Shown in pieces: positions 1,863 through 54,420 of a stretch of DNA of 64,000 nucleotides. Position 1 is the first letter of the stretch. The number at the start of each line of letters is the position of its first letter. This stretch comes from Diphasiastrum complanatum. Its lineage: Eukaryota > Streptophyta > Lycopodiopsida > Lycopodiales > Lycopodiaceae. The notes below the pieces were generated by a model, which did not search any database, had not been told where the DNA came from, and saw nothing but the letters and a program-made list of their open reading frames with translations. The stretch covers positions 1 through 64,000 of the forward strand of contig MU832168.1 of assembly GCA_029204225.1 (NCBI GenBank), given 5' to 3'. The position numbers were made by a program, and so were the translations under genes.

Positions 1863-2495
1863 TGTGAAAAAAGTGGATCTTGAATTGATCCAAACTCCCA
1901 AAATGCTTGGCTAAGATCTTTGCACAACAAGCTACAAAAGCTAGAAATGGCAAAGCATCCTAATGCTACCTTTGATACACATGAACTTGACAAAGCATTC
2001 AAGAGACAAAAGAAACTAATAAAAGGTACTGATGGCAGCCAAAAACAACAGCATACCAGCCCTACAATAGCAGCCTATCATACACAAAAGCTTGAAGACA
2101 ATACACAAAGCAATGCTCTTAATGGAGGAAGAAACTGTGACAATGATCTATTGATCTCTCTCAAAAATACAATAAGTTTCTCCAACCTGTTCTCCACGAA
2201 TTTCAGCCTAACATAGGTGAGAGAGATGACTTTCTCTCCTCTCTCTAGAACTTAGGACCCAAATTTAGGACACCAGTAGCCTAAAATAGCCAATTTTGGC
2301 CTATATGTCCAAATAACATGATTTTGGTGTCATTTCGAAGGTCCTGAAGTTTGAGACTTCTTTAACATAAAATATATACTAAAATAAAAGTATCTAGGCC
2401 TCTTTCACACGTGTGAAATGTTAGATCCAAAAACTATGTACAAAAATTGCCAATTTAGGCCTCAAACTAGCTAGGAAATGTTGACAATTTTCACA
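1863..2495 (-). repeat. 3' LTR of element A
   Basis: 633 bp, bounded by TG...CA (read on the minus strand as TGTGAAAATTGTCAACATTT ... TTTTTTCACA). The first ~48 bases equal those of the F LTR. It carries a perfect CACACGTGTG palindrome at 2406-2415. Confidence 0.9.
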
Positions 2496-2508
2496 CTCTC
2501 TCTTCAAA

Positions 2509-5106
2509 TTAACTTGCTAGTTTTACAACACTGCTTTTCTCCAACATAAGAATGATCTCCATCATGATAATAGATCTCTTCTCAAGTGTTCTAATATGTA
2601 GAATATGAAGTACAACATAATTGATATAGATAATAGTGTCCATATAGGGTGCTTCACTATTTCTTACATCAAGTTTACATAGAATGGTGAACATGATACA
2701 TGTAAAAGAACATAGAATTATAAAAGGATTCCTCCATGTATCCACCTTTGAATTCTCTGTAAAACAGCAGCAAACAAGCTGTAAGTGAAAGTAACCAACA
2801 AGTGTTTGCATGCCTCCTCCACATTCCACTATGCCCATAGTGAATGCACCATGTATCTCCATGAATGAACCTCCATCACCACCTTGCCTTTGTAGATATC
2901 CAATCCATGAAAGCCCTTGAGTGAATGAATGCCAAAATGATGTGTTCTCTGCTCCATTTGAATGAGCAAAACCTAAACTTGAAATACCTGAAGTATCTCC
3001 ACAAGATTTGCATAAAACCCTTGATCCTACATTGTCAACAATTTGCCAATTTGCCAACACTAGGATGCCAGATCTTGAACTTTGCTCAAAAGTAAACATA
3101 TTGACCACTTCAATATCTTTCAAGATTTGAATGAATGCATGTACTTGATCATAAGAACTAGCAATGATAACTATTCCATCTCCAAGATCCAAAGGATGCA
3201 AAACTATGGAACTAGTTTCATTGAATTTTGACAATTCCAACACATTGACATGACAATGTTCATACATGAGATTAAACAAATAAGGTAGAGTAAAAGGACA
3301 CTTCCTTGCTACTCCAAGAACCTTACTTGAACCTTCAAGAACCTGTAAAAACATATCCAAAATGCTTTGCCCATGTGGCTCCCCTTTGATGCTTTTGACT
3401 AGCTTCCAATTGCTACTTGCCTCTTGGTGTTGATGAAGCAATTCAAGATCAACATCTTGATCTTCCAATAAAACATCAAGGACTTTGCATTTATAAACAT
3501 CTTCAGATTTGAACCTTTGAAGATACTCCCTCTCAAACACATGATTAACATCCCACAAGATCTCATCATTGCTTGATTTCAACCTTTCACTATAGTTAGT
3601 GAAAACAATGTCACCATCATAAACCAAAAGATAGATTTCTACACTTCTATACATCATGAAGTAGAGTAGATAAAGTTGAGTATCAAACCTAATCAAACCA
3701 GCCCATTTGAGATCAAACCAAACCTCAATGAGCTCACCAATGAGATCTTCCTTGTCTTGGAGAAATTGCCACTTGAGTTGCTCCATGTAGTCTTCTTCAT
3801 CCAACTTTTTGCCATCTTGATCATGCATGAACACTCCACCAAAATCATAGCAACCTTTGAGTTGATGAAGAGATGTAAGATCCATGCCTTGAATCTTCCC
3901 AAGAGTCACTCTTCCTTTTCCCTTTCCTTCACAAGACTCCCTCTTAATGATCACACCACAAAAGTTAGCAATCTCCCTCTTGATAGTTGCATCATAAGAA
4001 ATGGAAGATTCTTGAACATTAGAAGCCATGAAAATAATACATAGTTCCTTCAACATAAGAATGATTGAAGTACTTTTTCTTGTCAAACCTGGACTTCTAA
4101 TCAATGATATAGGTAATGATAATGAACCCTCACTATCATTCACAAAAGCATCATTCAAAGTACATCCTACTTTGAACACTTCACATTCACCTCTCCCTTT
4201 TGACTTGAGATCTTCCTCACCAAGTCTCACGATAGAACCTTTTGATCTACTTTCTTTATGAATACATGTGACACCACTTGTTTCACAAATGACTTTTTTG
4301 GACTCATCACATAAAGATACAAAAGAAACTTTTTCTTCAATCATGCTCAAAGCACCATCTCTTTCCAAATGAGTAAATAAGTCATTAGCAATAACCGGTT
4401 CCAAAGAAGAGTTTTCATCACCTCCATTGATGAAGTTAGCTCTCTTCTTACCTTTTTCATTTTTGCACTTGCCATGTAGTTCCATTGATGAGCCACCAAG
4501 ACTTGGAAATCTATGAGTAGAAGAGTTCAAACATGATACTAATTTAGCACCACCAAACTCCATTTGACTAGTAGGTAGCACTAGTCCATCTTCAAGATCC
4601 AATGGATCCAAAACATTGATCATAGATTCACCAAAAGTTGCCAAGTTAGCACAACAATAACTATCTCCAAGAAGCTCATTAGATCTCAACCTAGATCTAC
4701 CATAAGGAAGTTCTTTAGACTTTGCATAAGATCTACCAATCTTATTGATGCTAGGGATTGACTTTTGAAAGTTGAGAGAACCACCAACATCCATTTCATT
4801 CCTCTTGTTAGACATAACAAATGCATCAAGCTTGTAAAGTCTACCTTGTCTATTTCCCATAGCAATCAAGACATCTCCCCTAGTAATGAAGCAAACATCC
4901 CCAACAAACTTTGTCTTGTACTCTTTTTTTAACATTTGACCAACACTTAGCAAATTCCTTGAAAGTGAAGGAATGTAAAGAACACCATGAAGCCTTACAT
5001 TCCTATTAGTAGAAAGGCAAATAGGAATTGAGCCAATACCTTTGATCATACATTCACCACCATTTGGCATGTGAACGACTTTCTTGGTTCCAACATAAGA
5101 GATCAA
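2509..5106 (-). CDS. Element A downstream open frame (protease end plus unknown tail)
   Basis: 865 codons without a stop. The first ~105 residues are the end of the copia protease/pre-integrase region (IKGIGSIPICLSTNRNV, VLYIPSLSRNLLSVGQM), continuous with the gag frame before a one-base insertion near 5133. The next ~760 residues show no integrase HSD/DNGGEY boxes and no YVDD. One stretch, IYLLVYDGDIVFTN at about 3580-3630, faintly resembles the RT catalytic strand with YVDD changed to YDGD, but the spacing to neighbouring RT motifs is wrong. Two short blocks resemble each other (VLDPLDLEDGLVLP and VLHPLDLGDGIVII). Function unknown. The long open frame suggests recent activity or past selection on the fused protein. 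Confidence 0.6.
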   Translation of the reverse strand: MISYVGTKKVVHMPNGGECMIKGIGSIPICLSTNRNVRLHGVLYIPSLSRNLLSVGQMLKKEYKTKFVGDVCFITRGDVLIAMGNRQGRLYKLDAFVMSNKRNEMDVGGSLNFQKSIPSINKIGRSYAKSKELPYGRSRLRSNELLGDSYCCANLATFGESMINVLDPLDLEDGLVLPTSQMEFGGAKLVSCLNSSTHRFPSLGGSSMELHGKCKNEKGKKRANFINGGDENSSLEPVIANDLFTHLERDGALSMIEEKVSFVSLCDESKKVICETSGVTCIHKESRSKGSIVRLGEEDLKSKGRGECEVFKVGCTLNDAFVNDSEGSLSLPISLIRSPGLTRKSTSIILMLKELCIIFMASNVQESSISYDATIKREIANFCGVIIKRESCEGKGKGRVTLGKIQGMDLTSLHQLKGCYDFGGVFMHDQDGKKLDEEDYMEQLKWQFLQDKEDLIGELIEVWFDLKWAGLIRFDTQLYLLYFMMYRSVEIYLLVYDGDIVFTNYSERLKSSNDEILWDVNHVFEREYLQRFKSEDVYKCKVLDVLLEDQDVDLELLHQHQEASSNWKLVKSIKGEPHGQSILDMFLQVLEGSSKVLGVARKCPFTLPYLFNLMYEHCHVNVLELSKFNETSSIVLHPLDLGDGIVIIASSYDQVHAFIQILKDIEVVNMFTFEQSSRSGILVLANWQIVDNVGSRVLCKSCGDTSGISSLGFAHSNGAENTSFWHSFTQGLSWIGYLQRQGGDGGSFMEIHGAFTMGIVECGGGMQTLVGYFHLQLVCCCFTENSKVDTWRNPFIILCSFTCIMFTILCKLDVRNSEAPYMDTIIYINYVVLHILHIRTLEKRSIIMMEIILMLEKSSVVKLAS

Positions 5107-5128
5107 AGAAGTAAAGAACTCCTTGTGA

Positions 5129-7232: not shown

Positions 7233-7802
7233 TGTGAAAAAAGTGGATCTTGAATTGATCCAGACTCCCAAAATGCTTGGCTAAGATCTTTGCACAACAA
7301 GCTACAAAAGCTAGAAATGGCAAAGCATCCTAATGCTATCTTTGATACACATGAACTTGACAAAGCATTCAAGAGACAAAAGAAACTAATAAAAGGTACT
7401 GATGGCAGCCAAAAACAACAGCATACCACCCCTACAATAGCAGCCTACCACTTCTGGAAACCTCTTAAGATCATACACAAAAGCTTGAAGACAATACACA
7501 AAGCAATGCTCTTAATGGAGGAAGAAACTGTGACAATGATCTATTGATCTCTCTCAACAATACAATAAGTTTCTCCAACCTGTTCTCCACAAATTTTAGC
7601 CTAATATAGGTGAGAGAGATGACTCTCTCTCCTCTCTCTAGAACTTAGGACCCAAATTTAGGGCACCAGTAGCCTAAAGTAGCCAATTTTGGCCTATATG
7701 TCCAAATAACATGATTTTGGTGTCATTTCGAAGGTCCTGAAGTTTGAGACTTCTTCAACATGAAATATATACCAAAATATAAGTATCTAGGCCTCTTTCA
7801 CA
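7233..7802 (-). repeat. 5' LTR of element A, truncated
   Basis: Direct repeat of 1863-2435 with a few substitutions and a small insertion. It stops at tttcaca, inside what is the CACACGTGTG palindrome in the other LTR; the last ~85 bases, which would be the upstream promoter part, are missing and element J DNA begins. Confidence 0.85.
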
Positions 7803-7812
7803 TGAGTCCTCA

Positions 7813-11897: not shown

Positions 11898-11904
11898 AAA
11901 AAAT

Positions 11905-12856: not shown

Positions 12857-13595
12857 AAAACAATCCATATTGATTTCTTGGCTTGCTACAAAAGTTGTAC
12901 CATGCAAGTATGTAGCTCATTAATGCAAAATGCCAAGTTTGGCCTACATAGAACTCGAGCTACACGGTTATTGCATATAGTTTATAGACATAGAATTAGC
13001 ATGATTATGCTTGTAAAAACTCGTGGCAACTCACATGCATTAATTGTAAGTGATCCATAGTGACATGCAAGGCATGCACAAAGTTTATTGGACACATGCA
13101 TGATGATTTGGACATTTCTAGTTAGAACTAGTACACTTGTAAAAAGTTGGTAGAATTTCATGCATGACAAGTGACAAATGTCACATAGACTCTAGATGTC
13201 AATGTCATTTTGGAATGGATAGATATGGTTCTACCTCGAGCTACCTCAATCTCCATAAATATGTGTAGCTCTCCACACAATTGATAATGAAGAACCAAAG
13301 TTTTGTAGCTATCTCATGTCATTTTGGATCTAAACAAATATTGCTTGTTATCTCTTTATCTCTAACTCGTGTTGAGGCTAATGCTCATACATTGAAATCT
13401 TGTATTTTTTCATTCTTTGATCATTGCTATTATATTCTGTTGATTAACATGCTAGATTGTGGATTAGCCATTTCTTCTGAACTAGATTTTGTTGATCGAT
13501 CTAGATATAGGTTATAGTGCCAATCACAAAGCTTAATTAAGATCAGTCACTCTTGTGGACATTCCCCACACGTGTGAATTCTAGAAATTTTGTCA
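12857..13595 (+). repeat. 5' LTR of C (left end damaged)
   Basis: Direct repeat of 21856-22623; lacks the terminal TGTTAAAATTG and a ~28-bp stretch present in the 3' LTR. A perfect CACACGTGTG lies at 13567-13576, near the 3' end. Confidence 0.85.
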
Positions 13596-13607: not shown

Positions 13608-14367
13608 CACATTAAGCATTGCATGCTAACAACTCTGATTGTACAAGAAACTGAGAGCTAAATCGAACAAAAAAGCAGTTTTACACTTTTTTTCTAACCC
13701 TTCTCTGAAGTTTATTTGGATCAAATCGGACTTGAACTGAATTTTTAGACCTGAATTGAGGAAGTACGGAATTCTGGAATTCCGCACGTGTGAAAATCAA
13801 AGTTTTTCAGTCCCTTTGTTCTCCTTACTTATAGATCCAAAGATAGTAGTCTTATAGCTTGATGGAAAGCATTTGATTTGTACTTTCCATAGAAATTGAA
13901 ACCAAATCAATATGATGTGTCTAGCAAGAGTTATAAGCTCTTAAAGAGGATAGGGATAGGTCCAAAATCCAAGTGACACCATTTTGATTTTATTCAATTA
14001 TACTTTGTTCTGAATTCATTGTTTTGAGCATCCAACACAAGAAACTGTAGATCAAGACTGAGTTTGAAGTATCTGAACACCCTTTGAGCCTTCTGAGTGT
14101 CAATAGTGTTTTCTTTTGAAGCATTTCACATGTGCCAAAAGTAGGATTCAAACCAGCCAAAGTGTCACAAACCACTTTTTGTGTCTGATCTATATAACTT
14201 GTCTTGTTGAATATTTGAGATTCATCTCATATATAGTTGCAACTGTTTCACATAGGAAGGTAGTTCAACCTTGAAAATACCTATAGTGAAAGAGAGCAGC
14301 AACTCTAAGTCTGATAGGAACAAGCTCAAACATATTTCAATCCAATAACTAAGAAGTCTTTATTATA

Positions 14368-15949: not shown

Positions 15950-16650
15950 TGTGAAAGTACTGTACTTTAGGACCATAAATGGATCTACAAAAGATCCACA
16001 AGAGTGATTGGATGCTTGCTTAACAATCTATCAAAAAACTAGACACAAAAAAGTTGATCTAGATTGGCAATTTAACAAACAACAAGCATTAACAATCAAA
16101 AGCATTGATAAACATTGAAATCCGAGCCCACACGTGTGTACTACAGGCTGTAGTACGGCCTTCAACCTGAGAAATAAGTAGAAATTGATTTGGTTTCATT
16201 TGGATCACAAAAACTCAATGTACATAGTGAACTAGCTTGAGATTGCCAATGAGCTCCAAAAATTTTCTATCTTCTCACTATGGAGAGAGGGAATACATAG
16301 CAAATTCGACTTCCTTCTTGAAGTTAGGTGGATTTCCAGCATGTAATAAGGAAGTTAACTCACTCTCCTTGACCTAAAATGAAACCCTAGTCTATTTCCT
16401 AGAGTTATGCTTGGTAGGTAGCTAGTTGGTCAAATTTTCACCTTAAACTTAGGTGTAGGTCCTATAAAGTAGGGATGACCACCAAATAGACATGACCAAA
16501 TCTCTTGACTTGACCTAACCTACATTAGGATGGGTTTCCCATGTGGCATCATGGCCTCACATGTGTGGGACCCACTTGTGTACACAATTTACACTATTCT
16601 ACATGGTTTTTGATCAAGCTAGATTTGCCAATTTTTGGCAATTCTTCACA
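15950..16650 (-). repeat. 3' LTR of H
   Basis: 701 bp, TG...CA. CACACGTGTG at 16129-16138 and a CACATGTGTG variant near 16558. A TATA-like actttatagg lies near 16465 on the minus strand. Confidence 0.92.
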
Positions 16651-19041: not shown

Positions 19042-19810
19042 GAAATAGATTTGATTGACTTGAAACTCACAAATGTCTCACACTTGCAGTGTTTCACTCA
19101 AATTTGATTTCTAATCCAACAAATGGACTTATAATCATAGTTCTATCACTCCCTCACAAAGCTGGAATGAAGATAAGATGAAGTGAAAACTACTTTCAAA
19201 CAAATCTTGCCAAGAAATGGATTTGATTGTCTCTAGAAACTCACTAAGGTCTCTCTCTTGTAGTTTTTCACTCAAATTAGATTTCTAATCCAACAATTGG
19301 ACTTATAATCTCAGTTCTAGCACTCCCTCACAAAGTTGGAATGAAGATAAGATGATGTGAAATCTACTTACAATCAAATCTTGCCAATTTTGGCTATTTC
19401 TGGACAAAAAAATGACTTAATCTCTTTCTTCCTTCTTAGTGTACTTTCAAGACCTGTTTTTAACCTTAATAGGACTTGAACTCAGCCTAGATTAATTAGA
19501 TTCCATGAAACAAATTCAAATCTAATCAATGGCAAATGATCTTGGTAGATTATCCTAGGATCTCCACCAAAAATTACACCAATAGCTCACAAATTGAATT
19601 TTTTTGGATCAAATGAATACCTTGCATTAAATGCAGGTTCAGAGGTGCCCACACATGTGGACAGTACGGATTTGGACCCCTACCAAGTTTGGGATCAAAT
19701 CTCCTCACCATAATCAAGATTCTAGCTTGCCCTCTCAATACTAGTTTTTAGCACCAAAACTTGCTAAAAATGGATTTGCATTAGATCAATGGCTTATGCT
19801 CTTGTACTTG
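19042..19810 (-). other. Leader of element H
   Basis: Non-coding. Two ~150-bp segments (about 19040-19200 and 19210-19375) are imperfect tandem copies of each other: both contain the tctcac..cttg..gt.tttcactcaaat block and the cactccctcacaaag.tggaatgaagataagatga block. Confidence 0.7.
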
Positions 19811-19822: not shown

Positions 19823-20523
19823 TGTGAAAGTACTGTACTTTAGGACCATAAATGGATCTACAAAAGATCCACAAGAGTGATTGGATGCTTGCTTAACAAT
19901 CTATCAAGAAACTAGACACAAAAAAGTTGATCTAGATTGGCAATTTAACAAACAACAAGTATTAACAATCAAAAGCATTGATAAACATTGAAATCCGATC
20001 CCACACGTGTGTACTACAGGCTGTAGTACGGCCTTCAACCTGAGAAACAAGTAGAAATTGATTTGGTTTCATTTGGATCACAAAAACTCAATGTACATAG
20101 TGAACTAGCTTGAGATTGCCAATGAGCTCCAAAAATTTTCTATCTTCTCACTATGGAGAGAGGGAATACATAGCAAATTCGACTTCCTTCTTGAAGTTAG
20201 GTGGATTTCCAGCATGTAATAAGGAAGTTAACTCACTCTCCTTGACCTAAAATGAAACCCTAGTCTATTTCCTAGAGTTATGCTTGGTAGGTAGCTAGTT
20301 GGTCAAATTTTCACCTTAAACTTAGGTGTAGGTCCTATAAAGTAGGGATGACCACCAAATAGACATGACCAACTCTCTTGACTTGACCTAACCTACATTA
20401 GGATGGGTTTCCCATGTGGCATCATGGCCTCACATGTGTGAGACCCACTTGTGTACACAATTTACACTATTCTACATGGTTTTTGATCAAGCTAGATTTG
20501 CCAATTTTTGGCAATTCTTCACA
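19823..20523 (-). repeat. 5' LTR of H
   Basis: 701 bp, same length as its partner; CACACGTGTG at 20002-20011. Confidence 0.92.
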
Positions 20524-27741: not shown

Positions 27742-28324
27742 TATATAAGATGGCGCACCTGGATTTGCAGCTTGATTTGAAGTTTCTTCGTCAAATCACT
27801 ATTTTTAGTCAAATTCATAGACATTACAAGATATTGAAAAAAAAAACTAGAAATTTTGAGTTTTCGCACATTTTAATTTTTTAAAAAAATTTTACGTTTT
27901 CTAAAATTTCATAAAAAATCACAGTTAGTTATTAAGCAATCGAAATCGAAATCGAAAATTCGATTCACTTGTTTGATTCTTAGTTTTACTCTGTTAATGT
28001 CCCTCATGCATGCAAGACATGCGACATTAAACTTATTTTTTACTTATCTTTGGATACAGGACACCAAATTGGGTGCTGTAAAGCTCAGTACAGAGGGAGA
28101 CCTAGTAAACAAGACACTTGCCATGTCAACCTGGCACCTAGGATCCACGTGCGAGTTCAAAACAACCAATTATACTGTAGGAGGACGGACTTTTTCAACA
28201 ATATGTCCAAAAATATGCAAACAGTCAACCATGCCTAAAAGTGATGATCCAAACAGTCTTAGATGGTCTCAAAGAGTTCCATGAAGCCTTCATACAGATC
28301 CACCTCTCCAAACTTGTAAGGCTT

Positions 28325-29843: not shown

Positions 29844-30498
29844 TGTGAAAATTGTCAACATTTCCTAGCTAGTTTGAGGCCTAAATTGGCTAAAATTGTA
29901 AATAGTTTTGGTTCTGGAGTTTCACACGTGTGAACCAGGCCACAATGTTTTTATTTACTGTATTTTTTCAGTATGATGAAGTGTCAAACTTCATACCCTT
30001 CAAAATGAGACCATTTTGATGTATTTTGGTCATATAAGCCATTTTTAGCTATTTTTCCTATATAGGGAATATCTAGGGTCAAGTACCTTCTAGAGAGAGG
30101 AGAGAGAGTCATCTTCCTCATCCATAAATAGTAGGGAAGTCGTGGAGAACAGGTTGGAGAAACCTTTTGTATGCTTCATTGAGATCAATAGATCATTGTC
30201 ATTGTTTCTTCCTCCATTGAGAGCATTGTTGTGTGTATTGTCTTCAAGCTATTGTGTATGATCTTAGGTGCTTTCCAAAAGTGATAGGCTGATGTATTAT
30301 GGACTGTATAATGCTATTTTGGGCCGCACTTGATGTTTATGGAAGTTTCCATTTGTGATAAATGCTTTTTGATCAAGTTCTTTGCATTCTAGGTAGCATA
30401 GAATGTGTTGCCAATTCCTAGCTTATGTAGTTTGGAGTGCAAGCATTCAAGCCAATGATCTTGGAGTTTAGATCCACTTAGGATCTGTATTTTTCACA
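29844..30498 (+). repeat. 5' LTR of F
   Basis: 655 bp, TG...CA. CACACGTGTG at 29923-29932; TATA-like cctatataggg at 30058-30068. Confidence 0.95.
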
Positions 30499-30513: not shown

Positions 30514-31670
30514 TTGGCTTCTATTTACAGTAAGTCTTCCATTTTTGGTGATATTTGGATGTTTGATCAAGTTCTAGCATGATTTTGCATTGCTTTGTTG
30601 ATCAAATCTTACTAACCTTTGTTTTGTGAGTTGAACTTGTGGATCAAAAGCATATTTCAGGTCTATTGAAGATCAGAGGCTGAAAAGAAACTATTTTGGA
30701 TCAGATCATAACACCTAATCATTTGTGATTGTGAGGCTTGTGCATATTCAATACTAACAATGTTCTTTTCAATCCTATTGTTGACAATCTCCATTCTTGG
30801 ATGAACACTCTCCTTAAGTGGATGAAACTTCTCCTTAAGTGGATGACAAATGCTCTTTTGAGTGAGTTGTAATTCTCCTAAAGGCTGAGCAAAGCTCCCA
30901 TTTGGATGAAAGATCCCCTTTTTTGGGTGAACATATTGTAAGCTCCATTGTGAAGAGCATATTGTAAAGATTGTCATCAATTTTGGCATAAATTTTGGTG
31001 TACTTTGTTGAGCATGTAAGTAACTCTCCTTATGTAATTTGATTGGAGCATTTGCTGGAAGGTGTTAACCATTATGCAAGTGTGTTTTCAGGTTCTTAAC
31101 AGGTTGAGGAACATTCTCATGTGAAGTGATCTTAGATCTACATCTAAACACCAAGATTTGACAAGATAGTGAAGCTAGTCTTGTGATTCACTAAGTGTGC
31201 TCATTCATTCACCTCTAAATCTTGTATTTATCACTTGCTGGAGTTTATAAACTTTTAGAAGTGTGGTTTACATGTGGTTTTACAGGTTGAATCAATATCT
31301 TAGTGTGTTGATCATATGTTGATCAAGTTTGTTCATTACTAGGTAATCTTGGCATCCTAGTTTTGGGTATTTTCTAAGAATGCAAGTAACTCTTCACACC
31401 ATAACTTGATTTGGTCACTTGCTGGAAAGTTTGAGAGCTTAAGCAAGAGTGTGTTCAGGTTGGTTTGATTTTGTAATCCATTCTTAGTGTGTGCAAAGTG
31501 TTGCATGTGTTTCAATCTTCCTTTCTATGCTTGGAAACCATCTAGGTTCAAGATAGAAGTGTTTTAGGGTCCTAAATCTTCATAGATCTCTTTATCTATC
31601 ATTTGTTGAGAGAAAAGTGAGTGCTAAGTGCTTTAGGACAGAACCTAAAAGTTGAAGAAACATTAGAATC
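30514..31670 (+). other. Leader of F
   Basis: Non-coding leader of about 1.16 kb between primer-binding site and gag ATG, shared with element A and, as a fragment, with 9945-10162. Confidence 0.85.
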
Positions 31671-33554
31671 ATGGCTTCCAATGGTGGGATCATGCTAGAG
31701 TCTAGTGAAAGGTTGAGTTCATCAAACTACTCTACTTGGAAAGTGAGGATGGAGTCCTTACTTGAGTTGAATGAACTCATGGACATAGTTGCAGAAATTG
31801 AAGAGAGACCTCTCACACTTCAAAAGCAACAAAGGTTTGATAAGAAGGCCAAAAGGGCTCTTCATATCATTAAAATGAATGTTACAAATGAACTTCTCAA
31901 GGAAGTTGGAAAGTGTCAAAGTGCAAGTGAGGCATGGAATGCCTTAAAGAAGCTCTTTGAATCAAAGTCCACATCTAGGGTATTGACCCTAAGGAGACAA
32001 ATATTTTCTAGTAGGCAAAGAGAGGGTGAAAGTGCTCATGCATTTATCTTGAGAGTTAAGTCCCTAAGTGATGATTTAGCATGCATTGATGAGAACATAA
32101 AAGATGGTGAAATAGTCCAAGTTATGTTGAATGGTTTGCTAAATGAACATGCTAACCTTGTGCAAAGTTTTGCCATTCAAAAAGTCTTGCCAAGTGTGGT
32201 TGACTTGCAAGAAATCTTATTGGCTGAAGAACATAGGTTGCAATCAAAGCTTGATGGTGCATCCTTGCAAGGTGGAGGTGAAGAGGCTTTCTTCACAAAA
32301 GGCAAATTCAAGGGCAAAGGCAAAGGCAAAGGGAAATGGTCCAAAGGTGGTAACTTTGATCATGATGATCACTCTTCCTCTTCCTCTTCTACTAAGAACA
32401 ATAAGTCAAAGTTCAAGTGCTTTTATTGTGGGATAAAAGGTCATTTTGCAAATGAATGTTATAAGAAGAAAAGAGAGCAAGGAGAGAGGCAAGGAAATCT
32501 TACAATAGATGAGGAAGAACATAACACATGTGAATCACTTGTTATGACTTCAAGTTTGTTAGCCAACATAGATGATAATGATCCTTGGTGGATTGATAGT
32601 GGAGCCTCATCTCACATGACAAGACATAAGGAATACTTTACATCCTTATTGTCTTATGAGGGAGAAGGTAACATCATCTACACTGCAAATGATGGTCAAT
32701 GTGACATCAAAGGCATAGGCACTATTCCTATTTCCCTTTCAACAAATAGGAAAGCAAATCTTGAAAATGTTTTGTACATTCCTTCAATCACTAAGAATTT
32801 GCTTAGTGTAAGTCAAATGATTGACAAAGGACTTGATGTGGAGTTCATTGGAGATGCATGTTTGATAAGTAAATGTGGATCCTTGATTGCTCAAGGTAGG
32901 AGGCATGGTAAACTTTTCAAGCTTGATGCATGTGTGATCTCTAATCATGAAGGATGTATGGCTAGGGAGCAATTGACAAACCAAGAAGTTTGGCACAAGA
33001 GGTTGGGCCATCCCAACTTCAAATCTTTGGAGGTAATGGCAAAGAAAGAGCTTGTTCTTGGTCTCCCTAAAAGTCTTGTTGCAAACAATAGTGTTTGTGA
33101 ACATTGTGCCTTGTCCAAATCTCATAGACTTGCTTATTCTAGATCTACTTCTAGATCTAAAGAAGCTTTTCAACTTGTGCATTCTGATATTCATTCTTCT
33201 AGTACAACTAGCAATGGTGGGGCAAAGATGTATGCAACTTTCATTGATGACTTTAGTAGGTATACTTGGATCTATCTTCTTAAAAGTAAGGATGAAGTGT
33301 TTGCTGCATTTGTCAAGTTCAAGAATGAAATGGAAAACCAATTCAATACAAAGATCAAATGCTTAAGATCTGATAATGGAGGGGAATACACCTCAAATAG
33401 GTTCAAAGACTTTTGTATAGCACATGGGATTAAGAGGGAGATGTCTAGTCCTAGGACTCCACAACAGAATGGAGTGGCCGAGAGGAAGAATAGAACCCTT
33501 TGTGAATGTGCCAAGGCAATGAGACTACATGCTAATCTTGCTAAGTCTTTTTGA
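31671..33554 (+). CDS. Element F polyprotein, first part (gag-protease-integrase)
   Basis: 627 residues from MASNGGIMLESSERLSSSNY. Order: gag (DUF4219-like start, UBN2-like body to about 190); zinc knuckle 250-263 (CFYCGIKGHFANEC); protease Asp 309 (WWIDSGASSHMT); integrase zinc-binding part (VWHKRLGHPNF, CEHCALSKSH); catalytic Asp 506 (HSDIHS), Asp 568 (RSDNGGEY) and Glu 604 (NGVAERKN), giving the standard 35-residue D-E spacing. Codon 628 is TGA, where relatives have Trp in SFWGE. The same frame resumes directly after it. With the stop, gag, protease and most of integrase can be made but not RT. Confidence 0.93.
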   Translation: MASNGGIMLESSERLSSSNYSTWKVRMESLLELNELMDIVAEIEERPLTLQKQQRFDKKAKRALHIIKMNVTNELLKEVGKCQSASEAWNALKKLFESKSTSRVLTLRRQIFSSRQREGESAHAFILRVKSLSDDLACIDENIKDGEIVQVMLNGLLNEHANLVQSFAIQKVLPSVVDLQEILLAEEHRLQSKLDGASLQGGGEEAFFTKGKFKGKGKGKGKWSKGGNFDHDDHSSSSSSTKNNKSKFKCFYCGIKGHFANECYKKKREQGERQGNLTIDEEEHNTCESLVMTSSLLANIDDNDPWWIDSGASSHMTRHKEYFTSLLSYEGEGNIIYTANDGQCDIKGIGTIPISLSTNRKANLENVLYIPSITKNLLSVSQMIDKGLDVEFIGDACLISKCGSLIAQGRRHGKLFKLDACVISNHEGCMAREQLTNQEVWHKRLGHPNFKSLEVMAKKELVLGLPKSLVANNSVCEHCALSKSHRLAYSRSTSRSKEAFQLVHSDIHSSSTTSNGGAKMYATFIDDFSRYTWIYLLKSKDEVFAAFVKFKNEMENQFNTKIKCLRSDNGGEYTSNRFKDFCIAHGIKREMSSPRTPQQNGVAERKNRTLCECAKAMRLHANLAKSF

Positions 33555-35624
33555 GGGGAAGCTTTAGCATGTGCTAACTATCTATGTAATAGATGGACAA
33601 GTGCTTCCTTGGATGGTAAAACTCCTCATGAGGTTCTTTATGGTAGAAGGCCGAGTGTCAAGCATTGTAGGATCTTTGGATGTACATGTTTTGTCAATAT
33701 CACACTTGATGATAGAACTAAAGAAGATCCTTCATCAAAGAAGGGTGTGTTTGTTGGCTATAGTGAAGTAAGCAAGGCTTACAAAGTGTACATTCCTTCT
33801 ACAAAGAAAGTTGTCATAAGTAGGGATGTCATCTTTCATGAAGAGAATGTTTCCAATGTTGTTGATGTTGATGTTGATGTGCCTACTAATCATCATGATG
33901 TGCAAGATGTCTTGGATGAAGATGGAGATGCCACTCCAAAGCAAACTTCAAGGAAGACTCAAAGGCAAAGGGCTAAGCCATCAAGGCTAACCTATGATGA
34001 AAAAGGAAAGCAAGTGGTGGACAACTCTAACTTTGTTTTTCTTACCTCTTTTGATGAACCAACTTGTGTAGGTGAAGCAATTCAAAAGAAGGAATGGATC
34101 CAAGCCATGGATCATGAGCATCAAGCACTCATCAAAAGCAACACATGGAGGTTGGTAAAGCTTCCAAAGGACAAGAAGGCAATTGGTTGTAAGTGGATCT
34201 TCAAGATCAAGACAAATCAAGATGGATCAATCAACAAGTACAAGGCAAGGTTGGTGGCAAAGGGGTATGCTCAAGAATATGGTATTGACTATGATGAGAC
34301 CTTTGCACCCGTGGCAAAGATGGTAACTATTCGAATCCTAATCTCTCTTGCAACTCTTTATGATTGGGATATGTGGCAAATGGATGTTACTAATGCCTTC
34401 TTGAATGGTGATCTTGAAGAAGATATTTACATGGAGCAACCCGAGGGCTATGTTTCACATGATGAGCCTAATCATGTGTGCTATCTCCAAAAGAGTTTGT
34501 ATGGGCTAAAGCAAGCACCAAGGAGTTGGTATGCTAAGCTCAATTCCTTCTTACTTTCTCAAAACTTTGTTATGAGTGAGTATGATCATTCTCTCTACTT
34601 TAGATTGAATGAAAATGATATCACTTTACTTTTGATCTATGTTGATGACATTATCTTAAGTGGTGGTAACAATCTAGATATAGATGAAATCAAGATGGCA
34701 CTCAAAAGAGAGTTTGAAATTCAAGATCTTGGTAAACTTCATTATATCTTAGGAATAGAGATTATTAGAACTTCTAAATCTACATTCATATGTCAAGAAA
34801 AGTATGTTAACTCTATTCTAAAAAGGTTTCATATGGAAGATTGTAAAGTTGTTTCTACTCCTATGGAATCAAATGTAAAGCTAACTACAAGAAGTAATGA
34901 AAGATCCTTCAAGGACATTACTCTCTATAGAAAGCTAATAGGATCTCTTATATGGTTAACCATCACAAGACCTGATCTAAGCTTTGTGGTTGGTAAACTA
35001 AGTCAATTTATGCATGATCCTAGTGAGGCTCATTGGAAGCTAGGAAAGAGAGTACTTAGATACATCTCGGGATCTAGAGATTTTGGCATCTTGTATGGAG
35101 GTACTACACCTAACCTTTGTGGATTTTCAGATTCAGATTTTGCAGGTGATCAAATGGATAGGAAGTCAACAAGTGCCTTTGCAATCTATCTTGGAGATGG
35201 AGTGGTCTCATGGCTATCAAAGAAGCAACCAACTATCTCTCTATCTTCCACCGAAGCCGAGTACAAGGCATTAACAACATGCACCAAGGAGATTCTTTGG
35301 ATCAAGAGGATGTTATTGGATCTTCACTTGCTGGAACCAGAGAAGACTCCAATCATACTTTGTGATAACCTTTCAGCCCAAAGCTTGGCAAGCAATCCTG
35401 TTTTTCATGCAAGGAGCAAGCACATTGAGATTGCTCACCATTTTGTGAGAGATCAAGTCATTGCCAAAGAGGTGGAGCTTCAACATGTCTCTTCAAAGGA
35501 GTGTGTGGCTGATATCTTCACCAAACCATTGGGAAAGGACCTATATTTAATGCATAGATCTAATCTTGGAATGTGCTCAAAGACTATGTTGAAACTAGCA
35601 TCCAATGTTGAAGAGGGAGTGTGA
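33555..35624 (+). CDS. Element F polyprotein, second part (integrase end, RT, RNase H)
   Basis: In frame with the first part after the TGA. Integrase C-terminal part (IFGCTCFVNITLDDRTKEDP, VISRDVIFHEE), linker, then RT: WIFKIKTNQDGSINKYKARL, WQMDVTNAFLNGDLEEDIYM, SLYGLKQAPRSWYAKL, and the active site YVDD at residues 990-993. RNase H has FSDSDFAGDQMDRKSTS, SLSSTEAEYKAL, CDNLSAQSLASNPVFHARS and ADIFTKPLGK. No other stop or frame break to the end at the polypurine tract. It would be translated only by readthrough of the TGA or from an internal start. Confidence 0.9.
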   Translation, partial: GEALACANYLCNRWTSASLDGKTPHEVLYGRRPSVKHCRIFGCTCFVNITLDDRTKEDPSSKKGVFVGYSEVSKAYKVYIPSTKKVVISRDVIFHEENVSNVVDVDVDVPTNHHDVQDVLDEDGDATPKQTSRKTQRQRAKPSRLTYDEKGKQVVDNSNFVFLTSFDEPTCVGEAIQKKEWIQAMDHEHQALIKSNTWRLVKLPKDKKAIGCKWIFKIKTNQDGSINKYKARLVAKGYAQEYGIDYDETFAPVAKMVTIRILISLATLYDWDMWQMDVTNAFLNGDLEEDIYMEQPEGYVSHDEPNHVCYLQKSLYGLKQAPRSWYAKLNSFLLSQNFVMSEYDHSLYFRLNENDITLLLIYVDDIILSGGNNLDIDEIKMALKREFEIQDLGKLHYILGIEIIRTSKSTFICQEKYVNSILKRFHMEDCKVVSTPMESNVKLTTRSNERSFKDITLYRKLIGSLIWLTITRPDLSFVVGKLSQFMHDPSEAHWKLGKRVLRYISGSRDFGILYGGTTPNLCGFSDSDFAGDQMDRKSTSAFAIYLGDGVVSWLSKKQPTISLSSTEAEYKALTTCTKEILWIKRMLLDLHLLEPEKTPIILCDNLSAQSLASNPVFHARSKHIEIAHHFVRDQVIAKEVELQHVSSKECVADIFTKPLGKDLYLMHRSNLGMCSKTMLKLASNVEEGV

Positions 35625-36274
35625 AAATTGTCAACATTTCCTAGCTAGTTTGAGGCCTAAATTGGCTAAAATTGTAAATAGTTTTGGTTCTGGAGTTTCA
35701 CACGTGTGAACCAGGCCACAATGTTTTTATTTACTGTATTTTTTCAGTATGATGAAGTGTCAAACTTCATACCCTTCAAAATGAGACCATTTTGATGTAT
35801 TTTGGTCATATAAGCCATTTTTAGCTATTTTTCCTATATAGGGAATATCTAGGGTCAAGTACCTTCTAGAGAGAGGAGAGAGAGTCATCTTCCTCATCCA
35901 TAAATAGTAGGGAAGTCGTGGAGAACAGGTTGGAGAAACCTTTTGTATGCTTCATTGAGATCAATAGATCATTGTCATTGTTTCTTCCTCCATTGAGAGC
36001 ATTGTTGTGTGTATTGTCTTCAAGCTATTGTGTATGATCTTAGGTGCTTTCCAAAAGTGATAGGCTGATGTATTATGGACTGTATAATGCTATTTTGGGC
36101 CGCACTTGATGTTTATGGAAGTTTCCATTTGTGATAAATGCTTTTTGATCAAGTTCTTTGCATTCTAGGTAGCATAGAATGTGTTGCCAATTCCTAGCTT
36201 ATGTAGTTTGGAGTGCAAGCATTCAAGCCAATGATCTTGGAGTTTAGATCCACTTAGGATCTGTATTTTTCACA
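35620..36274 (+). repeat. 3' LTR of F
   Basis: 655 bp, CACACGTGTG at 35699-35708. No difference from the 5' LTR was found in the stretches compared. Confidence 0.95.
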
Positions 36275-37431: not shown

Positions 37432-38255
37432 TGTGAGAAATTGGCAAAAATCTAGCTTGGTATTTTTCATGATATAAGTTTGTAAGTGAATCTCACATGT
37501 GTGGAGGATGTTCCCACGTGTGGAGAATTCTAAAGTAAATCAAAATGTTTGATATAGGGGTCTCATAGAATTTCATAGTCAAGCATTTAGGTGTAGGATG
37601 TTGATAGGGTCAAATTTGGCATAGATGGCAGATTATCCATTTCCACTTGTAATGTCACTATTGAGCCAAAATAGAGTAGGAGGCCAAACTCGTGCCAATT
37701 AGAGTGTAGACAAGTGTAATGCTTTTGTTTGATGAAGTTTAAGAGGTCCAATAGGATTTAGAGGTGGAACCATGAGTGGTCCAATAGAATTTGAGATTTG
37801 CTTGAAAATGGTCCAATAGAATTTAGAGGTGCATGGATCAATGGTCCAATAGGATTAAGAGGTGGAAAAGTGTGGTCCAATCATAGTTAAGCATAGTGGT
37901 AGCTCGTGGATCTACTAGTATCATTGTACTCCTCATTTGGATCTAATTGATTTTGAGATTGAGTGGATTTTGAGTGTAAGTGATTTTCTAGATTTCTCTC
38001 TCTACCCAAGAGCTCATGATGGTTTTTCTCTCTCTACCTGAGGAGAGCAGCTTGTTTTTACTTAGAATAATTTTTTAATACTTCCCACACGTGTGAGTGA
38101 GATTTGGAAGTGATTGAATGCATGTAGTAGTGTGTTTTTGCCATAGGATCTAAGATTGATCTTGAATCTCAATCTAGTCTTGATCTTGGTGCATCTACAC
38201 ATCTTAGGAGATCACAAGTACATGTTGTGGACAATCTACACGTGTGAAATCAACA
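37432..38255 (+). repeat. 5' LTR of G
   Basis: 824 bp, starts TGTGAGAAATTGG, ends gaaatcaaca. CACACGTGTG at 38086-38095 and further CACGTG cores near 37515 and 38241. A phrase of the type gtccaatag(a/g)att recurs at 37749-37855, four times. Confidence 0.9.
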
Positions 38256-38267
38256 TGGTATCAGATC
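38256..38267 (+). other. Primer-binding site of G
   Basis: TGGTATCAGATC; one base different from TGGTATCAGAGC at position 11. Confidence 0.85.
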
Positions 38268-38837
38268 CTACCTAAGGTTACCATGCATTTTGATCCATTT
38301 AAATGAAAACTATTCATCAATCTTGAGCTAAAAATTGTCAAGGTCCATTTTCCTAGCTATCTTGTTCAATTTTGGATCAAAAGAGATCAAAAGGACATTG
38401 ATTGGGTCTGACCTGGTACTGTACGGAATCAGGTGCTCAGACACATGTGAGGAACATCCAATTTCAGTTTGGAAGTTCTCTCTCATGCTTGATCCATTAT
38501 AGCTTGTTTTGAAGCTATTTTTGTCTAGTTTATGATGCAATCAGTTTCATTCCATTTGGTTGAGCCAATCAAAAGTTATAAGCTTTTGAAGAGGGTTAGG
38601 TAGGGCACCTAGACCTGGGTGGACATATTTGGTTTGGTCAAGAAATTGCCTGTTTGATCCAAAATCATAGTTGAATGCTTACCAATCTCATCTATATGTG
38701 ATTTAGGCACTATTTTGAGATCTTAGCCATTTTGTTTCATGCAATATCATTGTATTTGAGTCAAATTTGGTTTCTTAGTGTATTTTACACGTGGTAAGAG
38801 CGTTTGATCCTAACTTTGCCCATACTCCATCATTTGA

Positions 38838-41422: not shown

Positions 41423-42229
41423 TGTGAGAAATTGGCAAAAATCTAGCTTGGTATTTTTTATGATAGAAGTCTGTAAGTGAATCTCACATGTGTGGAGGAT
41501 GTTTCCACGTGTGGAAAATTCTAAAGTAAATCAAAATGTTTGATATAGGGGTCTCATAGAATTTCATAGTCAAGCATTTATGTGTAGGATGTTGGCATAG
41601 ATGGCAAATTATCCATTTTCACTTGTAATGCCACTATTGAGCCAAAATAGAGTAGGAGCCCAAACTCGTGCCAATTAGAGTGTAGACAAGTGTAATGCTT
41701 TTGTTTGATGAAGTTTAAGAGGTCCAATAGGATTTAGAGGTGGAACCATGAGTGGTCCAATAGAATTTGAGATTTGCTTGAAAATGGTCCAATAGAATTT
41801 AGAGGTGCATGGATCAATGGTCCAATAGGATTAAGAGGTGGAAAAGTGTGGTCCAATCATAGTTAAGCATAGTGGTAGCTCGTGGATCTACTAGTATCAT
41901 TGTACTCCTCATTTGGATCTAATTGATTTTGAGATTGAGTGGATTTTGAGTGTAAGTGATTTTCTAGCTTTCTCTCTCTACCCAAGAGCTCATGATGGTT
42001 TCTCTCTCTCTACCTGAGGAGAGCAGCTTGTTTTTACTTAGAATAATTTTTTAATACTTCCCACACGTGTGAGTGAGAGTTGGAAGTGATTGAATGCATG
42101 TAGTAGTGTGTTTTTGCCATAGGATCTAAGATTGATCTTGAATCTCAATCTAGTCTTGATCTTGGTGCATCTACACACCTTAGGAGTTCACAAGTACATG
42201 TTGTGGACAATCCACGTGTGAAATCAAAA
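41423..42229 (+). repeat. 3' LTR of G
   Basis: 807 bp, CACACGTGTG at 42062-42071; ends caaaa where the 5' LTR has caaca. Confidence 0.9.
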
Positions 42230-42234
42230 TATTC

Positions 42235-42517: not shown

Positions 42518-43174
42518 TGTTAAAAATTCACAATTCTAGCGTGACTAGTTTTGGTCATATGACTTGTAAATAGTTAGATGGTCATGATGTGGCTTGTCAA
42601 ACATGCCAAATAGCATAGGATTCCATTCATAAGTATGTTCTCAAGTTGACCTAAGTGATAGTACCTTTGTAATGAGTCTAAATCATGCTTAGATACAAGC
42701 AAGAAAAAAAGTAGGAACTATTTTGGGTAGTTTTGACATTGTTGAGGGATCTCAAGATTCCAACGCTAACTTGGTAGGGATGAGTGCTCCACCAAAATTA
42801 GCATTAGTGATAGGTTTAGGGCTACTCATACCTGCCCAAAACCATGATGGATCATGTATATATAGGTGATGATCTCTCACCAAAATCAATCAAGCAATTT
42901 CATGGTTTTTCTCTCATATTGGTGCAATTGCTCTCTATGCTCATATTTCTTTGAGATCTTGTGATTGTAATCATTATAGGATTGAATGTGGGTCTGGTGT
43001 ACAGTATTCAGACTATGGGAGGCCGTACTTTCACATGTGTGAAGGCTTATTCAAGGATTTGAGCCATTTAGTATGGTTCAAGCACGGATTTTTGATGGAT
43101 TTTGATGGTGCAACTTGTGCTAACAATATGGAATCATAATTGTCTTAGGGTCCTTTTTTGCTATAATTTTCACA
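42518..43174 (+). repeat. 3' LTR of E
   Basis: 657 bp, starts TGTTAAAAATTC, ends ttttcaca. Diverged from the 5' LTR by many substitutions and small indels. Contains a CACATGTGTG variant near 43033. Confidence 0.88.
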
Positions 43175-43296: not shown

Positions 43297-44025
43297 ATTC
43301 TTTTTGAAAATTCTAGTAATGACAAAAATATGGAATTGAATCTATTGCTACTCTTCTCAATCTAGGATCTAACTTGGAATATCGATCCAACCTATTGAAA
43401 AACTTGCAGCAAATATATGAGAACTAGCTCACAACACAAAATCAATCAACTTGAATCTAGATCTAGCTTCTATCAAATGATGAAGCATAACAAGATTCAT
43501 GTCACTTTCTACCTCGAGTTTCAAAAGATGAATACACTCTAGGAGCTCCACATACAACTCAAACACAATCAATTTGTGTGAAATGATGTGATATGACATC
43601 TAAAACTCGTCTTCCAATTCTATCTTTGATTGAAAACACAAAGTGAAAATATTGATGAGATTGAATAGATGTGTGCTCTCTTTGGCATATCACACAAGAT
43701 GGGGTGCACTCCCTATCACTTTGATTGCCTATAGCTTTCTAAAAACAAATCAAATTGATTTAAAATCATTAGCGCAACATTCTACACTTCAACACCTCTC
43801 TATCTAGCTATCAAACACAAAAAAAATGGATCAATACTTTAGATATACCACCTATTTGAAATAGGTTGATCTCACACGTGTGGAAATTCAAGTCCATACA
43901 GATCTCATTTAATGCAAATCAGTATTGATTTGATCAATCTTTGATCCAAAATTGGTTTGATTGAAACCGAGATTGAATTCCTCTCCCAAATTCGAGTTCT
44001 TGCAAGCAATTACTCTCAACACAAA
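43297..44025 (-). other. Leader of element D
   Basis: Non-coding; contains CACACGTGTG at 43873-43882. Confidence 0.7.
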
Positions 44026-53256: not shown

Positions 53257-53655
53257 GTCAATATATGCAAGGTCCCTTGATGCATCATTGGAAAAGTGCC
53301 AAGAGAGTGCTTAGATATGTCTCATCTACTAGATTTTTTGGCATTCTCTATCAAGGATCTAATTTGTACTTGAGGGCATTTTTGGATTCGGATTTTGCAG
53401 GAGACAAGATGGATAGAATATCTATAAGTGCATTTGTCACTTTTCTTTGTGGAGGAGTGATATCTTGGCTTTCCAAAAAGCAAGATATAATTTCTCTTTC
53501 CTCTTGTGAATCCGAGTACAAGGCATTGACTTCAACAACCAAAGAACTCCTATGGCTTAGAAGACTTTTGGTGGAACTACATTCTATAGGCTCTGAATAT
53601 GTCAACAGTGCTCTTGGAATTGTAGATAGATATACATTAGACTTACCAAGTTAGA
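53257..53655 (+). pseudogene. Element I RNase H, truncated
   Basis: HHWKSAKRVLRYVSSTRFFG, FLDSDFAGDKMDRIS, CGGVISWLSKKQ, SLSSCESEYKALTSTTKELL. After LVELHSIGSEYV it diverges; the CDNxSAxxLA to TKPL end is missing. Confidence 0.85.
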
Positions 53656-53667
53656 AGTGAGGAGGAG

Positions 53668-54420
53668 TGTTAAAAGTCTCACTTCCAGCTTGATGTACTT
53701 GGTTAATCTTGAGATATTTGATCATGATAGGATCTCACACGTGTGGAGCATGTTCCCACATGTGAAAGGATGTACATAACTTACTTTTATAAAGTTAGAT
53801 TGATTTTAGATGGATCCACACAAGTGTGAAATTGACCTTTGAGTAGAATCTAGAAAAAGTCATTTTAGTCAAACTTTTTGTAAATAGAATGCACTTCCAT
53901 TTGAATGAGTAAATGCTCCCACATGTCAAGATGCCATTCACACGTGTGGATAAGGTTGTAGATGATAAGATAGAGAGATTCCATAAGATCATATTTTATA
54001 GGGAATATTCCTATGAATGTGGATGATTAGCTTTTTTGTTTCTAGTCAGCTTTGGAAAATGAACATATATGGCTCCCATTGGTGGATCTGGATGACTAGG
54101 CACTATTCACACGTGTGAAGGCTTGTTGGACAGTACTCAGTTCGTGGATGTACTTGATCTATAAAGGGATCAACCAAATCAATGAGTAGTTGATGTGACA
54201 TTGGCAAATTCTATTTTCCTTGTGATTTTCACATTTGTCTTGAGTTTTTATGATTGGAATGCTTGTGTAAAAGTACTTCACTCTCTATTTACAGACCATA
54301 CTAGTACTATCCTCCACATGTGTGAGACCGCTCTTCATAGTTTTTAATCATTTGATCCATTGCTCTTGATAAAATCATAGTGTAATGCATCTAGATCAAG
54401 ATCTAACACTTAGAACTTGA
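53668..54420 (+). repeat. 3' LTR of I
   Basis: Starts TGTTAAAAGTCTC after ggaggag. Three perfect CACACGTGTG palindromes (53736, 53939, 54108) plus CACATGTG variants; TATA-like ctataaaggg at 54159-54168. Right end estimated. Confidence 0.7.

Follow-up and report, generated by a model that had tools for sequence, protein, structure and literature searches.

A 14-bp palindrome conserved in LTRs and leaders of a copia lineage, with a predicted role as a BZR1/BES1-type binding site

The repeated palindrome of the 64-kb window (the whole stretch of Diphasiastrum complanatum DNA analyzed here) is a 14-bp unit, YYCACACGTGTGRR, and not the bare 10-mer CA-CACGTG-TG at its center or the G-box CACGTG within that. 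We predict that YYCACACGTGTGRR is a DNA-level site of a host transcription factor, maintained by selection in a single large Ty1/copia lineage, both within LTRs and within leaders. A given element can have it in up to five places: close to the LTR start (often as a doublet), in the middle of U3, some 50 bp before TATA, in R/U5, and in the leader after the PBS. The R/U5 and leader sites are often accompanied by CCGTAC, a motif with a GTAC core whose distance from them is helically phased. On balance, the palindrome is probably an enhancer element of this copia lineage that is read by BZR1/BES1, likely with a GTAC-binding partner.

Abundance and extent of the palindrome

A preliminary description had listed 12 perfect copies of the 10-mer in the window as exceeding chance. 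All 12 were found at their coordinates, against a mean of 0.02 copies in dinucleotide shuffles of the window (n = 100). The window was also screened for words of 10 bp with counts of at least 8 on both strands, low-complexity words being excluded, and the palindrome was the most over-represented of those screened. When up to one mismatch was allowed, 27 sites were found in the window versus 0.56 expected; of the 15 additional sites, 11 were CACATGTGTG or CACACATGTG, the expected products of decay at the central CpG. The whole host genome (1.74 Gb) contains 86,555 copies of the 10-mer versus 1,886 of its reversed control, and 71,778 CpG-decayed forms versus 2,122. Site density is one per 5.3 kb in the window, which had been chosen for its wealth of exact sites, versus one per 20 kb in the genome.

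The preliminary description called the CACGTG at the center of the palindrome the plant G-box; the genome-wide counts do not support the G-box as the unit. CACGTG alone is hardly enriched (337,052 copies versus 317,605 of the reversed control), with no general enrichment of the core irrespective of its outer flanks, while 25.7% of all its genomic copies lie within the 10-mer. On these counts the generic G-box was discarded as the unit. The selected part is the CA..TG and YY..RR surrounding CACGTG: 74,691 of the 86,555 genomic sites (86.3%) have the YY..RR flanks that complete YYCACACGTGTGRR. Sites from all sources (78) group into 29 flank clusters, so that some share alignable flanks. In the 21 clusters with an exact site, Y is found at -1 and -2 and R at +2 in every case, and R at +1 in 19. 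One sampled locus, L002, overlaps another, L001, and was omitted from the flank clusters, the homology comparisons, the locus sample and the local companion count. An ordinary G-box factor (a bHLH protein such as PIF or MYC, or a bZIP protein), as the preliminary description proposed, for which the flanks merely tune binding, would account for the CACGTG core and, in three families, for a site that precedes a TATA word by 40-53 bp. We consider such a reader unlikely, since the strong preference for CA..TG and YY..RR suits the 10-bp BZR1 site better than a 6-bp G-box.

Distribution in the copia elements of the window

Of the 12 exact sites in the window, 11 are LTR sites and the remaining one (43873) is a leader site, with no copy inside coding sequence. 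ORFs in the window encode the Ty1/copia domains Retrotran_gag_2, Pol_BBD, rve, SH3_retrovirus and RVT_2; the gag-pol frames of element F (31656..35624, plus strand) have the first three and then the last two, which mark it as Ty1/copia, and a PBS, TGGTATCAGAGC, adjoins the LTR ends of the window elements. In what follows, strands are given for oriented features only. Element A, a minus-strand copia element, has an exact site at 2406..2415 in its 3' LTR (1863-~2492), some 80 bp in from where the LTR starts; the alignment of its 5' LTR (7233..7802, minus strand) to the 3' LTR stops within the palindrome. Element F has exact sites at 29923..29932, 79 bp into its 5' LTR (29844-30498), and at 35699..35708 in its 3' LTR (35620-36274). 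The two LTRs are 100% identical; the PBS is at 30499, and TATATAGGG is found at about 30059.

In the 5' LTR of element C (12857-13595), the exact site (13567..13576) is at the U5 end and precedes the PBS (13596) by 29 bp; the matching copy in the 3' LTR, at 22595, is a CpG-decayed form. The leader of this element carries a composite at 13764..13792 (plus strand) made up of GTACGG, a 13-bp gap and CGCACGTGTG. In the minus-strand element D, an exact site is paired with GTACGG at a gap of 14 bp in both the 3' LTR (15950-16650; composite at 16129..16158, minus strand) and the 5' LTR (19823-20523; composite at 20002..20031, minus strand). A CpG-decayed site (16558..16567) is located some 85 bp in from the start of the LTR, and another is paired with GTACGG at a gap of 4 bp in the leader (19650..19669, minus strand).

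Element G has sites at several positions in its 5' LTR (37432-38256). A doublet of CACATGTGTG and CCCACGTGTG, 19 bp start to start, is found near the LTR start (37494..37522, plus strand), followed by an exact site at 38086..38095 and, at the U5 end, by TACACGTGTG (38237..38246), 19 bp before the PBS at 38256. The leader composite (38421..38449, plus strand) consists of GTACGG, a 13-bp gap and GACACATGTG, and the partner of the 38086 copy is at 42062..42071 in the 3' LTR (41423-42230). An LTR-like repeat at 42518-43172, of the same family as the one at 23494-24144, has CCGTAC, a 3-bp gap and CACATGTGTG at 43023..43041 (plus strand). The leader site of the minus-strand element H (43873..43882) lies 155 bp after the PBS start (44037) and has a decayed CCATAC 11 bp away. 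Element I has no partner LTR inside the window, and its LTR (from ~53666) was therefore inferred from a polypurine tract and homologous copies. It contains a doublet near its start, made up of an exact site and then CCCACATGTG, 19 bp start to start (53736..53764, plus strand), a second exact site at 53939..53948, and a third at 54108..54117, which is 52 bp upstream of TATAAAG at 54160. A fourth, CpG-decayed site (54315..54324, plus strand) lies 155 bp downstream of the TATA, with CCATAC 13 bp away.

In a sample of 27 loci, 26 belonged to LTRs or leaders of copia elements (24 were assigned directly and 2 by inference), so that within this sample the density outside LTRs is not equal.

Conservation relative to flanking sequence

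The carrier elements belong to a single copia lineage, and their LTRs can be aligned in part, so the earlier statement that these LTRs are otherwise hard to align holds only in part, as the grouping of sites into flank clusters also indicates. The count of 12 copies stands, but the proposal of nine independent sites in seven elements overstated independence: elements A and F are members of the same family, and the site found some 80 bp into the LTR of each is homologous between them, with a flank identity of 0.78. Families (Fam1-Fam15, about a dozen hand-defined families) were delimited by eye, and copies within one family are not independent.

Despite its CpG core, the palindrome is conserved above its flanks. 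At 36 homologous places whose retrieval did not depend on the site, there were 24 mismatches in 360 site positions versus about 69 expected at the flank rate, and 7 of the 24 were not CpG transitions. In 18 homologous pairs, chosen by hand with one per site class, 15 site mismatches were found versus 38.9, a result reached in none of 20,000 random-window draws; many of these pairs are unremarkable singly, and the signal lies in their sum. Ten pairs without window targets, likewise picked by hand for each site class, gave 9 site mismatches versus 22.7, reached in 22 of 20,000 draws. Spread of a functionless site by copying from a single ancestral LTR would be in keeping with the single lineage and with the homology of some sites. 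It is nevertheless highly implausible, since the sites change less than the flanks of the same alignments and since position and phasing are kept across families; pure inheritance was rejected on the site-versus-flank comparisons. The earlier idea of a common switch kept across families is thus upheld as regards a shared element under constraint, but its unit is not the plant G-box.

A companion GTAC motif

About one quarter of genomic sites have CCGTAC within 30 bp, and the companion is found genome-wide 21,593 times in one arrangement (control 28) and 2,690 times in the other (control 27). The four most enriched 6-mers near sites are CCATAC, CCGTAC, AAGTAC and CTGTAC. The GTAC core, which we take to be a site for SBP/SPL-type factors, therefore occurs near the palindrome above chance. 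The gap between the two motifs was 3±1, 13±1 or 23±1 bp for 98 of 100 matches in one listed set, for 89 of 100 in a second, and for 20 of 25 in the local count; these phase windows were set after the listed gaps had been seen, and hand-chosen gap lists (12 gaps; 17 values) were not relied on. The gaps step by about 10 bp, a helical-turn rhythm.

Candidate DNA-binding proteins and related systems

The most likely reader of the palindrome would be a homodimer of the BZR1/BES1 family, because the published best site of that family is exactly this 10-mer. CA-CACGTG-TG is described as a 'perfect' BIL1/BZR1 site, and CATGTG as the best-tolerated E-box variant (PMC12668046). The perfect BIL1/BZR1-binding sequence (BBS) is defined there as the 10-bp C(G/A)CACGTG(C/T)G, with which the exact 10-mer agrees, and the commonest variants found here (the CATGTG form, and CGCACGTGTG at 13783) are forms ranked as tolerated or preferred. 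The host genome encodes BES1/BZR1-type DNA-binding domains: it has 26 BES1_N (PF05687) matches, some with stops or duplicated, and none of 14 control genomes has any. One of these host domains, P0001, matches the BZR1 chain of 5zd4 (E 9e-33), with a nearly identical basic stretch. The most likely partner would be a GTAC-binding factor, for example an SBP/SPL protein. In Arabidopsis, BZR1 interacts with SPL9 and the two jointly regulate targets (PMC8509050), as paired CACACGTGTG and GTAC motifs would suggest, although the abstract of that study mentions neither transposons nor a fixed motif spacing.

The most likely effect would be that of a multi-site enhancer by which the element is transcribed, as copies that are not transcribed have no descendants. 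In Arabidopsis the 'perfect' site is linked to repressed genes (PMC12668046), and activation therefore cannot be taken for granted. With an observed/expected CpG ratio of 0.26, the window is poor in CpG, which suggests methylation, and this may block binding. More tentatively, the lineage might share a two-factor enhancer grammar, in which BZR/BES1-type palindromes at nucleosome-like intervals are combined, downstream of the start site, with GTAC (SBP) partners in helical phase. Such a grammar could make transcription of the elements depend on the host network for growth hormones and developmental phase, and some 86,000 intact best-affinity BZR sites might titrate or rewire that network.

The BBS is described from Arabidopsis promoters, mostly of brassinosteroid-repressed genes (PMC12668046), whereas here tens of thousands of copies of the same palindrome, with flanking YY/RR and a companion GTAC motif, are found in the LTRs and leaders of retrotransposons. 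Host-factor sites, for stress factors, are likewise known in plant retrotransposon LTRs, namely ONSEN/HSFA2, EVADE/WRKY and PHRE/TCP-DOF-GATA (PMC12786077). Those sites are named for single families, while one site and one spacing rule are common here to about a dozen families and to U3, R/U5 and leader; the main text of that review contains no G-box, BZR1, bHLH, SBP or brassinosteroid. Literature searches, covering the titles and the starts of abstracts of the papers listed, with most subscription journals outside their scope, gave no report of the 10-mer motif in retrotransposons and no match for CACGTGTG together with BZR1. The control regions of LTRs usually change so quickly that their sequence does not reveal a shared regulatory code. 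Here motif, flanks, positions and partner spacing can be read in about a dozen families defined by hand and are backed by counts over the whole genome, giving a precise and cheap prediction of host factors that drive (or restrain) abundant transposons of the host genome. If BZR-type factors do bind, high-affinity BZR sites number in the tens of thousands in this plant, and transposons probably hold most of them, to judge by 26 of the 27 loci sampled, which would bear on the shaping of hormone networks by transposons and on stage-specific transposition.

Position relative to the PBS and TATA

The site has a fixed place relative to TATA and the PBS in many families, but not in all. In the genome, 4,049 sites lie 135-165 bp after a PBS versus 232 at 335-365 bp, and 5,141 lie 165-195 bp before it; the gap to the PBS is 178-179 bp in 72 of 100 matches listed. 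The mapping against TATA called for in the preliminary description gave a mixed picture: in addition to the three families with the site at 40-53 bp, three lack a TATA word and three others have one that does not fit.

Palindromes near the PBS in leader RNA are familiar from other retroelements, as in the retroviral DIS and the Ty1 palindromes and cyclization sequences. The sites described here could similarly act in genomic RNA, through dimerization kissing loops, R/U5-leader pairing around the PBS, or 5'-3' circularization. The R/U5 and leader sites are indeed transcribed, on either side of the PBS and at nearly constant distances from it. Nine transcribed segments were folded, and in two of the seven with two or more recognized sites the sites pair with each other; in the other five they do not. 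The flank bases show no covariation, the -1/+1 pairs being anti-complementary (TA 48, TG 28, CA 22, CG 2; Fisher p 0.0095), and flank complementarity within a family is about equal to that across families. Unlike the retroviral DIS and Ty1 palindromes, the motif is also found in U3, upstream of TATA, and its companion gaps have a DNA-like phasing. An RNA role is consequently improbable. An RNA dimerization palindrome is not supported, with neither covarying flanks nor a conserved loop presentation and with inconsistent folds, and nor is the earlier suggestion of a conserved structural site (RNA or cruciform pairing), on the lack of pairwise covariation and the steps of about 10 bp.

Successive sites lie about one nucleosome repeat apart, as they might if they positioned nucleosomes or an insulator protein. 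Over the initial 2.06 Mb of C1, the 100 exact sites listed, less the one at 579763, which has no listed neighbor within 700 bp, gave 68 consecutive spacings of 11-699 bp, of which 41 were at 145-217 bp, 17 at 333-392 bp and none in 244-332 bp. These spacings come from copies of few families, however, and the apparent steps may be inherited. We regard this explanation as very improbable by itself; nucleosome spacing and factor binding are compatible with each other.

It should be noted that the proposed BZR1/BES1-read enhancer does not predict the near-constant PBS distances, which count against it. CpG decay at R/U5 sites is also mildly biased to the sense strand (1,134 C-to-T versus 753 G-to-A), as would be tolerable by wobble in RNA pairing; a symmetric DNA site does not predict this bias, which likewise counts against the enhancer. 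A sequence resembling a 3' splice site, TTTTCAG/TTTCAGGT, is found upstream of R/U5 sites.

Occurrence of the palindrome in the window and in the genome

All twelve perfect copies of the palindrome CACACGTGTG that the preliminary description had placed in the window were present at the claimed coordinates. In 100 dinucleotide shuffles the mean was 0.02 copies, and among the 10-mers screened in the window this word was the most over-represented. Beyond the 12 exact sites, the window holds 15 with one mismatch, and 11 of these read CACATGTGTG or CACACATGTG, as expected from decay of the CpG at the centre; CpG observed/expected is 0.26 across the window.

When counts were taken over the 1.74 Gb host assembly, the 10-mer was found 86,555 times (1,886 for the control, the motif read backwards) and its CpG-decayed form 71,778 times (control 2,122). 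The bare core CACGTG is barely enriched, with 337,052 copies against 317,605 for its reversed control, so that 25.7% of all genomic CACGTG lies inside the 10-mer. The pattern YYCACACGTGTGRR, which adds two bases on each side, is fitted by 74,691 of the 86,555 exact sites (86.3%), where about 6% would be expected with free flanks. Grouping 78 sites by their flanks gave 29 clusters; in the 21 with an exact site, Y occupied positions -1 and -2 in 21/21, R position +1 in 19/21 and R position +2 in 21/21. Because the bare core is barely enriched and the outer flanks are biased, we regard the selected word as a 14-bp palindrome, and the earlier view of the G-box as the unit does not hold.

Location of the sites in LTRs and leaders

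Copia LTRs in the window were mapped by self-alignment, the primer-binding site (PBS, TGGTATCAGAGC) and the polypurine tract, and copia domains were present in the window ORFs. Twenty-seven distinct loci around exact sites, close to the beginning of contig C1, were sampled. For 24 of the 27 the evidence was direct (LTR, leader or PBS); L004, the 3' LTR of the L003 family, which follows a copia polypurine tract, and L028, counted via homology to the L026/L033 LTR, bring the total to 26 and leave L006 unassigned. The families have a common layout, with a site 60-90 bp from the LTR start, often as a doublet 19 bp apart, further sites in mid-U3 and, as the last position, a leader site after the PBS.

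The placement relative to TATA boxes, which the preliminary description had proposed to map, is regular in many families but not in all. With the proviso that a TATA word is a short sequence, of which some LTRs contain additional copies, one family has a site 40 bp upstream of such a word and two others have one 49-53 bp upstream. Six families have the R/U5 site 155-176 bp downstream of TATA; in one more, Fam8, this distance is 249 bp, stretched beyond the usual by a long CT microsatellite in the LTR (window 1532-1648), between a TATA word and the R/U5 site. Among our hand-defined families, Fam3, Fam4 and Fam5 showed no TATA word, and in Fam2, Fam11 and Fam15 it was present but did not fit. 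Genome-wide, 4,049 sites follow a PBS at a gap of 135-165 bp versus 232 at 335-365 bp, and 5,141 precede one at 165-195 bp; the reversed controls gave 0 in all three counts. Of 68 site-to-site spacings, 41 were 145-217 bp and 17 were 333-392 bp, with none at 244-332 bp; these resemble nucleosome repeats and may be inherited. In several families, words like 3' splice sites (TTTTCAGG, TTTCAGGT or TTTACAG) closely precede the R/U5 sites (L016:567; L026, minus strand, 594; L031:581; window 54288).

Conservation and inheritance

As judged from sequence comparison, the palindrome is both conserved and inherited across the copia elements. The elements belong to one lineage, and A and F to one family, so the independence of the sites was overstated in the preliminary description; their conservation above that of the flanks stands. 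At 36 homologous places that had not been fetched for the site, there were 24 mismatches in 360 site positions, whereas the flank rate predicts about 69, and 7 of the 24 were changes other than CpG transitions. In a set of 18 pairs that represents every site class once, 15 site mismatches were counted against a mean of 38.9 in random 10-bp windows of the same alignments, and 0 of 20,000 random draws was as low. The test was repeated on 10 pairs with the target outside the window, because the window had been singled out for exact sites; here there were 9 mismatches versus 22.7, a value reached by 22 of 20,000 draws. Mere inheritance, with the site kept no better than flanking bases, is thus contradicted both overall and outside the window. 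At window positions 23990 and 38237 the site is no better conserved than its surroundings, and several other pairs are unremarkable singly.

A GTAC companion motif

The four 6-mers most enriched beside the sites were CCATAC, CCGTAC, AAGTAC and CTGTAC, three of which are CCGTAC or its CpG-decay products. GTAC is the core of the SBP/SPL binding site. The companion accompanies mostly R/U5 and leader sites, with a U3 exception at L031:401. Genome-wide, CCGTAC points at an exact site from <=30 bp in 21,593 cases (control 28) and has the opposite arrangement at 2,690 exact sites (control 27). Among the matches listed, gaps of 3+-1, 13+-1 or 23+-1 bp, windows chosen after viewing the gaps of the former arrangement, account for 98 of 100 with CCGTAC pointing at the site and 89 of 100 in the opposite arrangement (nine more are at 10 bp), same-family copies being non-independent. 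In a local set that counts decayed forms and is reduced to a single row per cluster, gap and orientation, these gap windows contained 20 of 25 rows, and the best-fit period was 9-11 bp with a broad peak. Such phasing is as would be required for two proteins on one DNA face.

A palindrome near the PBS might instead pair in RNA. The -1/+1 flanks are anti-complementary (TA 48, TG 28, CA 22 and CG 2 among 100 matches listed), and complementarity of U5 and leader flanks was about the same within as across families (10 rows), both of which speak against pairing. Nine transcribed segments were folded, and in 2 of the 7 with two or more recognised sites the two sites paired mutually. A pure DNA reading fits neither the excess of sense C-to-T over G-to-A decay at the R/U5 site (1,134 versus 753) nor the PBS gap of 178-179 bp in 72 of 100 copies listed, though family structure may explain both.

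A candidate factor and its putative role

PMC12668046 gives C(G/A)CACGTG(C/T)G as the 'perfect' BIL1/BZR1 homodimer binding sequence, with CA-CACGTG-TG as a probe; the CATGTG form is the best-tolerated E-box variant, and the CATATG and CAGCTG forms are almost unbound. This order of preference is also the order of abundance of the window variants (12 exact, 11 CATGTG-type, 2 CATATG and 1 other), but CpG decay predicts an identical order. The BES1_N domain had 26 matches in the host genome, several being fragments, duplicates or stop-containing; one translated domain matched BZR1 of 5zd4 with E 9e-33 and a nearly identical basic stretch.

Our best reading is a multi-site LTR/leader enhancer, putatively read by a BZR/BES1-type dimer, which a GTAC-binding partner would join at the downstream sites; SPL9 is described in PMC8509050 as interacting with BZR1. 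The sites would be maintained because an element copy spreads only if it is transcribed. PMC12668046 also links the 'perfect' BZR1 site to repression in Arabidopsis, so the site may restrain the elements rather than drive their transcription. Host-factor sites in plant LTRs are already known, those for HSFA2, WRKY and TCP/DOF/GATA being named in a review (PMC12786077). The part that seems new is the motif-and-spacing grammar across about a dozen copia families; among the titles and abstract starts listed by literature searches, no prior report of such a grammar pointing to BZR-type factors was found.

Other features of the window

In element A, the 5' LTR matches the 3' LTR to mid-palindrome and then continues as a D-family-like fragment (window 7794-7810 and 2400-2415), so that the palindrome itself apparently contains a rearrangement breakpoint. 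The LTR of element G has an internal short repeat at 37740-37920 with several near-copies of GGTCCAATAGRATT, and similar words occur in locus L020. The 10-mer is absent from a stretch with a Ty3-type gag frame (27052-28336, minus strand; PBS-like word at 28336). Beside element H is a hAT-type transposase-like gene (44665-45796), made up of a pair of overlapping ORFs that encode zf-C17orf113 and hAT dimerisation domains. The final 9.4 kb (54601-64000) also has no 10-mer, and its composition is unlike that of the nested copia block (GC 0.394 versus 0.366; CpG observed/expected 0.53 versus 0.20).
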